Source: Pelagibacteraceae bacterium AG-426-E17
GTDB taxonomy: Bacteria; Pseudomonadota; Alphaproteobacteria; Pelagibacterales; Pelagibacteraceae
DNA: 64,000 nt
NCBI GenBank assembly: GCA_003210095.1
Contig: QCNP01000001.1
Span: 728,001-792,000, forward strand
Reading direction: 5' to 3'
Position numbers and translations under genes: made by a program. The notes under the pieces are model-generated. The model saw only the letters and a program-made list of their open reading frames with translations, did not search any database and was not told where the DNA came from. Shown here in pieces: positions 60,293 through 64,000 of the stretch (positions are counted from its first letter, which is position 1; the number at the start of each line of letters is the position of its first letter).

Positions 60293-60775
60293 ATGAATTC
60301 AATTTTAACCAGTGAAGCAGTGATTAGAGTTCAAAAAGCTCTTAACGAATTCAATGACAATATTAAAATTATGATTTTAGAAAAGACTGCAAGAACAGCA
60401 AAGGATGCTGCAGAAGCACTTAATTGTGAAATTGGGGCAATAGTTAAAAGTTTACTTTTAAAAGCTGATGATGAATTTATTTTGTGTTTGATACCAGGTG
60501 ATAAGAAATGTTCATTAAATAAATTAAAAAAAATTATTTCAAAAAAAGATGTATGCATGGCTGATGCAGATCAAGTTAAAGAAAACACTGGTTTTAGCAT
60601 CGGAGGTGTTTCACCAGTAGGTCATTTAAAAAAAATTGAAGTTTTGGTTGATAAAACATTTTATAGGTTTAAAGAAGTTTTTGCTGCTGCAGGCCATCCA
60701 AATAGTATTTTTAAAATAAGCAACTTAGATCTTTTAAAAATTACTAATGGTAAAACTTTGGATATTTCAGAATGA
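60293..60775 (+). CDS. YbaK/EbsC-type aminoacyl-tRNA deacylase
   Basis: The 160-residue protein belongs to the YbaK/ProX family of tRNA editing domains. EKTARTAKDAAEALNCEIGA followed by IVKSLLLKADDEFILCLIPG, then the Gly-rich GFSIGGVSPVGHLKKIEVLV and AAGHPNSIFKI, match closely. Relatives hydrolyse mischarged Cys- or Ala-tRNA-Pro; specificity is unknown. It overlaps the next EamA gene by four bases. Confidence 0.87.
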   Translation: MNSILTSEAVIRVQKALNEFNDNIKIMILEKTARTAKDAAEALNCEIGAIVKSLLLKADDEFILCLIPGDKKCSLNKLKKIISKKDVCMADADQVKENTGFSIGGVSPVGHLKKIEVLVDKTFYRFKEVFAAAGHPNSIFKISNLDLLKITNGKTLDISE

Positions 60776-61665
60776 GACAGCCCAATTTAATTGACTATTC
60801 TTTGCTTGTTTTTTTAGCTGTAATTTGGGCCTCAGCTTTTTTTAATATAAAAATTGCAACAGAATCTTTTGGACCAATAACTATTGCTTTTATAAGAGTT
60901 TTTCTAGGCTCAATTCCATTACTTATTTTATGTAGTATTAAAAATATAAAAATTGAGGCGTTTTCAAAAGACTGGCTTTGGTTTGCATCTATCGGATTTG
61001 TAAATCTTGTGTTACCATTTTTTTTAATTGCTTATGGAGTTAAGCAAATCCAAAGTAATTTAGCAGCAATATTAATGTCAACCTCACCTTTAACCTCAAC
61101 ACTGTTAGCTCACGTATTCATTAAAAATGAGAAAATAAATCTCTTAAAAATTATTGGTGTTTCCGTTGGTTTTGCAGGTATAGTTTATCTATTTTCTGAT
61201 GATTTTTTAATTAATGAAAACAACATCTTTTCAGCATTTTGTATATTAATGGGGTCCCTCGGCTACGTTATTGGCGGGATTTTAACTCTAAAAATAAGCA
61301 AGAAAAAAAACGAGAATGTTACAGCGTCCATTTTAATTTGGGCTACAATAATTTTACTCCCAATATGTTTTATTTTAGAAAAACCTTGGAATTACAGTCC
61401 ATCAGTGAACTCACTCATTTCAATAATATACTTAGGTTTAATCACAACTGGCTTGGCTTGGGTTTTAAGGTTTAAAGTTTTAAAAGAAAATGGCTTAGTA
61501 TTTCAGTCTCAAGTAGCTTATTTAATTCCAATTTTTGGAGTTGTTTTGGGGTACATTTTTTTAGGAGAAATTATTACAGATAAAGTAATTATAGCTTTAG
61601 TTGCAATTATTCTTGGAATTTATCTTGTAAAAAAATCTACTAAAATTATTCCAGTTAAAGTTTAA
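60772..61665 (+). CDS. EamA/DMT-family transporter
   Basis: The 297-residue protein has ten predicted helices in two EamA repeats: YSLLVFLAVIWASAFFNIKI, IQSNLAAILMSTSPLTSTLL, then SQVAYLIPIFGVVLGYIFLG and GEIITDKVIIALVAIILGIY. The substrate is unknown. It is coupled to the YbaK-like gene by a four-base overlap and followed 65 bases on by another EamA gene, with a parS-like palindrome between them. The two are different branches, not a recent tandem duplication. Confidence 0.88.
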   Translation: MRQPNLIDYSLLVFLAVIWASAFFNIKIATESFGPITIAFIRVFLGSIPLLILCSIKNIKIEAFSKDWLWFASIGFVNLVLPFFLIAYGVKQIQSNLAAILMSTSPLTSTLLAHVFIKNEKINLLKIIGVSVGFAGIVYLFSDDFLINENNIFSAFCILMGSLGYVIGGILTLKISKKKNENVTASILIWATIILLPICFILEKPWNYSPSVNSLISIIYLGLITTGLAWVLRFKVLKENGLVFQSQVAYLIPIFGVVLGYIFLGEIITDKVIIALVAIILGIYLVKKSTKIIPVKV

Positions 61666-61700
61666 TTTTAAATTTGATTCAACTTTAGGTTTTTCTGTGG

Positions 61701-61712
61701 TTTCACGTGAAA
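61701..61712. other. parS-like palindrome
   Basis: A perfect 12-base palindrome TTTCACGTGAAA lies between two EamA genes. The wider 16 bases read GG-core-TT, against TG-core-CA in the ParB-binding parS consensus, so 13 of 16 match. parS sites seed ParB spreading near the chromosome origin. No parA, parB, gidA or dnaA gene is in the window, so function is inferred from sequence only. Confidence 0.55.
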
Positions 61713-61730
61713 TTGATATAACTTGATTAA

Positions 61731-62585
61731 ATGAAAAATAGTTTATCTTTTGCGTTTATCTTTTTATGGTCATCAGCTTTTGTTACAACTAAACCAATAG
61801 TTGATAACAGTGATCCGTTTTCTGCATTAGCCTTTAGATTTCTTATAGTGGCTATTGGTTTTTTTATTTATGCGAAATATAAAAAAATTTCACTAACATT
61901 AGAAAAAAAAGAATTATCTCATTCAATTTTAAGTGGAGTTTTGTTTCACGGAATTTATTTGGGTGGTGTTTTTTACTCAGTCTCTCTCGGTATCCCAACA
62001 GGGATAACTGCTCTCATAGTTACAATGCAACCAATACTAACAAACGCATTAGCTGGACCAATTTTAAATGAAAAAGTTGGTTGGAGACAGTGGGTTGGAG
62101 TAATACTTGGATTTACTGGGGCAGCAATCGTTCTAGGTTTTGATTTTGGAGAAAGTTTACCCTCAGTAGGTATCATAGCATCGTTTATTGCCTTAACATC
62201 TATTACATCTGCAACTTTGTTACAAAAGAAATTTGGGGGGAATGCTCCCTTACCAGTAAGCAACATGTATCAAGCTGCTGGAGGATGCATGTTTCATATT
62301 TTAATTATTATTTTTTTTGCTGATGCATTTATTAATTTTAATAAAACTTTTTTAATAGCAATGAGCCATCAAATATTTCTAGTATCCTTTGGTGCTTTTA
62401 CAATTTTAATGTATTTGATAAAAAATAATTCAGCGAGCAAAACTGTAACAATCTTTTTTCTAATTCCAGCAACAACCGCAATTATTGCTTGGATATTTTT
62501 AAACGAACAACTATCTAATCTAGATATTTTTGGATTTGTGGTCGCATCTTTTGGTGTTTATTTGGCTACAAGAAAAACTAGTTAA
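61731..62585 (+). CDS. EamA/DMT-family transporter
   Basis: The 284-residue protein begins NSLSFAFIFLWSSAFVTTKP, has repeat-one end GITALIVTMQPILTNALAGP and repeat-two FFLIPATTAIIAWIFLNEQL. Ten helices, substrate unknown. It follows the parS-like site and precedes a hairpin and the aldehyde dehydrogenase frame. Confidence 0.88.
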   Translation: MKNSLSFAFIFLWSSAFVTTKPIVDNSDPFSALAFRFLIVAIGFFIYAKYKKISLTLEKKELSHSILSGVLFHGIYLGGVFYSVSLGIPTGITALIVTMQPILTNALAGPILNEKVGWRQWVGVILGFTGAAIVLGFDFGESLPSVGIIASFIALTSITSATLLQKKFGGNAPLPVSNMYQAAGGCMFHILIIIFFADAFINFNKTFLIAMSHQIFLVSFGAFTILMYLIKNNSASKTVTIFFLIPATTAIIAWIFLNEQLSNLDIFGFVVASFGVYLATRKTS

Positions 62586-62687: not shown

Positions 62688-64000
62688 ATGGCTAAGACTA
62701 AGAGGAAGGCTATTAAAAGAGAGAGAAAGAAAACAAAAAAGTCGATTAAAAGAAAGAAAAAACTTAAAAGCGGAACGACAAGGAAACTTTCTAAATCATC
62801 AAAAAAAGCTAAGTCGAAGTCAAAAAAGCGTAAAACAAATGGAGGAAAAATGAGTGCAGAAATGAAATTGTCTTCTGTTCTGGATACATCTCATTTGAAG
62901 GTTAAATTTCCGTTTAAAGCTAAATACGGAAACTACATTAACGGTAAATTTGTAGAGCCTAAATCTGGAAAGTATTTTGACAATACTTCTCCGATTTCAA
63001 ATGAAAAAATCTGTGCAGTTGCAAGATCAAATGAAAAAGACGTGGATGCAGCATTAGATGCAGCCCACGCAGCTTTTCCGTCTTGGGGTAAAACTTCAAT
63101 TACGGAAAGATCTAACATGTTACTTAAAGTAGCTGATGCGATTGAGAAAAACTTAAACACATTAGCTGTAGCAGAGTGTTTAGATAATGGTAAGCCAATC
63201 AGAGAATGTATGGCTGCAGACTTACCTTTAGTGATTGACCACTGGAGATATTTTGCAGGTGTAATTAGAGCTGAAGAAGGTTCAATTGCTGAAATTAGCA
63301 GCGGTGAATATTCTTACCATATACCTGAGCCACTAGGTGTAGTTGGACAAATTATACCTTGGAACTTCCCTTTACTAATGGCAACTTGGAAACTTGCTCC
63401 AGCATTAGCAGCTGGTAACTGTGTGGTATTAAAACCTGCAGAGCAAACTCCAGCTTCGATCATGGTATTGATGGAACTTATTGGTGATATATTACCTCCA
63501 GGTGTAGTTAACATTGTAAGCGGTTTTGGTTTAGAAGCTGGTAAACCTTTAGCATCTTCTAAAAGAATAAGAAAAGTTGCTTTCACTGGTGAAACAACAA
63601 CTGGTAGATTGATAATGCAATACGCATCACAAAACTTAATTCCAATTACATTAGAATTAGGTGGTAAATCTCCTAACATTTATTTTGAAGACGTTATGGA
63701 TAAAGACGATGACTTCTTCGACAAATGTCTAGAAGGTTTTGCGATGTTTACATTAAACCAAGGAGAAGTTTGTACTTGTCCAAGTAGAGCTTTAGTACAA
63801 GAGTCTATCTATGATAAGTTTATGGAAAGAGCTGTTGCAAGAACTAAAGCAGTTAAACAAGACAATCCTTTAAAAATGGAAACAATGATTGGTGCGCAAG
63901 CTTCATTAGAACAAATGGAAAAAATCAAATCTTATCTAGATTTAGGTAAGAAAGAAGGTGCCAAAGTTCTATGTGGAGGAAATGTTGCTAAAATCAATAG
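62688..64000 (+). CDS. Aldehyde dehydrogenase (cut at right edge) with in-frame basic leader
   Basis: From ATG 62850 the protein reads [20 protein letters not shown] then a standard NAD-dependent aldehyde dehydrogenase: [51 protein letters not shown] and the catalytic Cys in [11 protein letters not shown]. About 383 codons are visible to the window end. GGAGG (62841-62845) sits five bases before that ATG, making it the likely enzyme start. Yet the frame is open back to ATG 62688, adding 54 residues that are more than half Lys/Arg ([19 protein letters not shown]...). This leader may be a real fused domain, a separate peptide ending in the enzyme frame, or untranslated. The ExaC-like branch oxidises short aldehydes. 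Confidence 0.9.

Follow-up and report, generated by a model that had tools for sequence, protein, structure and literature searches.

A palindrome identical to the parS core in a conserved block upstream of an EamA-type transporter gene of Pelagibacteraceae: a likely promoter operator and possible ParB site

Results

Features of the locus

The window analyzed here is a stretch of 64,000 nucleotides (C1:728001-792000) from a Pelagibacteraceae genome of 1.151 Mb in 5 contigs. Near its end, two EamA-type transporter genes, designated EamA1 and EamA2, are separated by a short intergenic region, in which a perfect 12-bp palindrome identical to the parS core was found (Table 1). The sequence-only reading had located a palindrome of this kind, scoring 13/16 to parS, between two transporter genes at 61695-61716, and both its placement and its score were confirmed. 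The 16-mer has a perfect left half-site, lacks the outer C of the right half, and differs from parS (TGTTTCACGTGAAACA) at three outer positions.

Table 1 Features of the window around the palindrome (positions in the window).
Feature	Position	Strand	Evidence or remark
EamA1, upstream EamA transporter gene	60772..61665	+	gene end and palindrome 35 bp apart
Further conserved upstream bases TTCAACTTTA (TTCAA...A before GG)	61678..61687	+	sequence conservation
Conserved upstream flank GGTTTTTCTGTGG	61688..61700	+	contains CTGTGG
parS-like 16-mer GGTTTCACGTGAAATT	61699..61714	+	left half GTTTCAC perfect
Palindrome TTTCACGTGAAA, parS core	61701..61712	.	intact in 24/24 block-bearing genus genomes
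Candidate -10 box TATAAC	61717..61722	+	conservation; putative role
EamA2, EamA/DMT-family transporter gene, presumed regulated	61731..62585	+	PF00892, E=1.6e-26

Within the 64-kb window, this was the only site with three or fewer mismatches to the parS 16-mer. Since at least one such site also occurred in 21 of 100 shuffled windows, the 16-mer score is weak when taken alone. For the exact 12-mer, chance predicts about 0.007 occurrences per 64 kb (0.11 per Mb at 29% GC), in agreement with the rate given earlier. The strong evidence for the palindrome is its conservation rather than this estimate.

The palindrome was embedded in a longer conserved block, AGGTTTTTCTGTGG-TTTCACGTGAAA-N4-TATA(A/G)(C/G). 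In every EamA-type copy, four free bases after the palindrome were followed by TATA(A/G) and one or two conserved bases, and the start codon lay 18-23 bases past the palindrome (18 nt to the ATG in the window). CTGTGG is located 17 nt ahead of the TATA box, at the position of a -35 element, and may serve as one, yet it is a poor -35 sequence. A consensus promoter scan at the site gave no convincing sigma-70 match and did not pick up TATAAC; the putative -35 and -10 assignments are based on conservation only. The outer C/G of the right half was absent from every copy of the block, with A or T in its place.

The upstream neighbor of the block was variable (EamA1, a divergent glycosyltransferase gene, or a divergent mmuM), whereas the block kept its association with the gene downstream of it. 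A glycosyltransferase-like gene (L141 4476-5360) had entered between EamA1 and the block in G049, G205, G168, and G183, which suggests that the spot just upstream of the block is prone to insertion. Downstream in the window, an aldehyde dehydrogenase frame opens with about 54 Lys/Arg-rich residues (62688-62850) before a normal start, MSAEMKLSS...; a similar tail was observed in G042, G049, and G332 and was absent from G282 and G119.

Conservation of the block

Upstream DNA was read for 69 EamA2 orthologs, and in 8 of them the palindrome was intact, with its first base 30-34 bp ahead of the start codon. When the 25-mer GGTTTTTCTGTGGTTTCACGTGAAA was searched with up to three mismatches, the block was found in 24 of the 399 genus genomes, and all mismatches were confined to the flank. 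Twenty-one of these copies precede EamA2, and three (G282, G224, and G119) precede mmuM, which encodes homocysteine S-methyltransferase (PF02574); a fourth mmuM-type copy was found in G017. In the mmuM copies, the palindrome was closer to the start codon, at a distance of 4-10 bases, so that the position of the presumed operator within the promoter would differ from that in the EamA-type copies, as is common for operators. In the mmuM-type carriers of loci L138, L139, and L140, the block is aimed at mmuM and is reversed relative to the same neighbors in EamA-type carriers, as if inverted in place.

An exact 23-base probe against 84,980 species genomes detected 37 loci, all in Pelagibacteraceae; 36 of them read into EamA2, and in the last the locus itself stops just after the start codon. 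The fourfold-degenerate sites of EamA2 in distant carriers (the G042, G034, and G049 group) were only 36-47% identical to those of the window gene, whereas the core plus flank was identical at 25 of 25 positions. The probability of such identity by chance is about 2e-9 at 45% fourfold-site identity, indicating purifying selection on the block. In the EamA2 tree, the block carriers fell into at least two separate groups.

A degenerate regulon was also considered, as TRTRGTTTCACGTGAAAWW with up to two mismatches matched in 212 of 399 genomes. It was rejected because the loci opened at one or two mismatches were almost all coding, and several were the same codons in different genomes. Five matches to a 19-mer in viral contigs, most if not all of them in coding sequence, were regarded as unrelated.

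Distribution of the exact core in the genus

In 101 genus genomes, the exact 12-mer palindrome occurred 112 times, in every case either at the gid/par locus or in the EamA2/mmuM block; two doublets (G010 and G013) and the par copies of G069 and G034 were confirmed individually. About 11 copies would be expected at random from the base composition, and a reversed control pattern was seen 5 times. Because all exact cores were confined to these two places against about 11 random copies expected, the core seems to be tied to ParB recognition, and it is perhaps avoided elsewhere in the genomes. parS sites that are one-sided in the manner of the block were also present at the par locus.

Two exact parS cores, one at the 3' end of gidA and the other in gidB, were observed 332 bp apart (335 bp in G037) in about 20 genus genomes (loci L043, L045, L048, L056, L290, L313, and others). 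One site of this doublet often lacked the outer G on one side, and its fixed spacing looks selected. The doublet was found in none of the nine EamA2-block carriers of the 101-genome set.

Position relative to the par locus and the origin

A scan of the genome for other parS copies, which the sequence-only reading had proposed, revealed one site with a single mismatch (15/16), CGTTTCACGTGAAACA, at C1:384916-384931. This site is at the start of gidB within an mnmE-gidA-gidB-parA-parB cluster. The genome thus encodes both ParA and ParB, and a search for ParB-family proteins gave a single match, the ParB of this cluster. Distances from the window site (C1:789701) are 405 kb to the gidB parS and 340 kb to dnaA (C1:449150). 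The cumulative GC skew, which was noisy and sampled in stretches of the genome, was lowest over a broad region at about 366-590 kb, away from the window site at 789.7 kb. The earlier suggestion that the palindrome marks proximity to the origin was therefore not borne out, since a better parS lies 405 kb away beside parAB. The same two facts, distance from the origin and a better parS in gidB, were those it had named as telling against a centromere; what stands of the idea of a parS-like centromere site is the exact identity with the parS core of the genus, and the centromere role is not supported.

Discussion

The site stays with a single downstream gene and the promoter of that gene, a pattern that suits an operator better than a centromere. 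From the sequence comparisons, the block is very likely a protein-binding promoter operator of some kind, and the identity of its core with parS is probably meaningful. In the mechanism that we propose, the palindrome would form the center of an operator in the promoter of EamA2, and of mmuM in some relatives. Because the palindrome lies between the two putative promoter boxes, CTGTGG and TATA(A/G)(C/G), a dimer bound there would exclude RNA polymerase. The most likely dimer would be the single chromosomal ParB of the cell, which would load on a parS whose one half (GTTTCAC) is perfect and whose other half is weakened, and transcription of EamA2 would then hinge on ParB occupancy. The promoter roles, the repression, and ParB as the binder are what we infer from these arrangements. 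A ParB site at the palindrome is plausible, and we would put ParB at even odds as the binder. We give a probability of roughly 0.4 to the full reading, in which part of the SAR11 genus has recruited ParB to serve, by way of one off-locus parS, as a dedicated regulator of the promoter of a methionine-linked transporter gene (of mmuM in relatives).

Findings that favor a ParB operator are the parS core itself, the single ParB-family match in the genome, the restriction of the exact core to the par locus or the block, and the one-sided sites at the par locus. There is also a precedent. In Pseudomonas aeruginosa, the intergenic sites parS3 and parS4 mediate repression of the PA0011 and PA0013 promoters by ParB, and mutation of parS abolishes this effect (PMC5521831). 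The window site resembles these in being an intergenic parS core in or beside a putative promoter (4 nt before TATAAC), with ParB repression proposed here; it differs in that parS3 and parS4 are origin-proximal, whereas the window site is distant from the par locus, with a ParB control that is only putative. In our reading of an alignment, SAR11 ParB has R/M/N/G at the Caulobacter specificity residues R173/T179/A184/G201 (PMC7383237); it appears to keep the two residues whose change switches recognition to the Noc site, which is suggestive only.

Other observations weigh against ParB. The right half lacks its outer C/G in every copy. P. aeruginosa ParB also binds GTTTCAC half sites with little effect on local transcription (PMC10419367), and copies of parS placed mid-arm lower fitness in Caulobacter (PMC5815017). 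The window site shares GTTTCAC with the P. aeruginosa half-parS sites (GTTTCAC/GTTCCAC), but it differs from them in having a full symmetric core and a strongly conserved position. ParB needs a length of 16 bp; the block is longer, and therefore something besides ParB constrains it. Furthermore, the presence of mmuM as a partner gene hints at control by a metabolite, which counts against ParB, since to our knowledge no metabolite control by ParB has been described.

An ordinary transcription factor encoded elsewhere may instead bind the block as the operator of a methionine- or sulfur-linked transporter and mmuM, the parS match being coincidental; we regard this as the main rival, though not as the favored explanation. 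A link of the genes downstream of the block to methionine metabolism is probable: the block precedes mmuM in four genomes, and mmuM lies directly behind EamA2 on one strand in five others (G010, G018, G039, G077, and G080). Among the other mmuM loci that were examined, three had a SAM-V riboswitch, and mmuM is induced by sulfur limitation in strain HTCC1062 (PMC5069961). The conserved flank that outruns the length of parS points in the same direction. However, a random 6-bp half-site would equal the parS half-site only once in 4096, no regulator gene adjoined the block in the loci examined, and no other promoter with the motif was detected, the examined matches with one or two mismatches being almost all coding. 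A palindrome with a central CG is also reminiscent of LacI-family operators, but a search of the genome for PF00356 gave no match while the controls were detected, and a LacI-type operator is accordingly not indicated.

It is improbable that the window site is a genuine second centromere, or a place of SMC loading, acting mid-arm in segregation. It does resemble a chromosomal parS (ParABS/Spo0J) in its exact 12-bp core, its one perfect half-site, its 13/16 match, and the ParA and ParB encoded by the genome, and no other off-locus exact copies were found in the 101 genomes. However, chromosomal parS sites match TGTTTCACGTGAAACA exactly or with one or two mismatches and are located near parAB and the origin, whereas the window site has three mismatches, is remote from parAB, and has lost the outer base on one side in every copy. 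It is embedded in a longer promoter block tied to one gene, at a fixed distance and with an oriented flank and a TATA box; only 24 of 399 genomes carry this block, and the harm caused by ectopic mid-arm parS in Caulobacter argues further against such a role.

Still less probable is a structured, riboswitch-like RNA leader, in which the block would act in the transcript instead of as DNA. SAR11 has many riboswitches, the block is just upstream of a start codon, and the SAM-V riboswitch upstream of SAR11 mmuM controls, in relatives, a gene family that some copies of the block precede. The block nevertheless has no match to SAM-V in sequence or structure, being a DNA-like palindrome with no aptamer. 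An Rfam search at the site gave no match to a known structured RNA or riboswitch, folding at the window site was unremarkable (z-score -0.43, against -2.16 in one relative), and the block is too short, with a symmetric core that shows no covariation. A chance palindrome kept through recent common descent, for which the frequency of 13/16 matches in shuffled windows might speak, is scarcely credible, being contradicted by the identity of the 25-bp block between genomes with near-saturated fourfold sites.

SAR11 bacteria, which rank with the most abundant cells of the ocean, possess few regulators of the classical kind. If ParB is the regulator, transcription of a metabolic gene would follow the ParB level, its CTP state, or the cell cycle, and the conserved parS core in a promoter away from the par locus would mean that a streamlined genome reuses a segregation protein for gene control. 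Whether chromosomal ParB regulates genes at specific sites beyond the origin region could be tested cleanly on the block. Even with another binder, it would represent a strongly conserved, apparently undescribed cis-element for a methionine-linked transporter.
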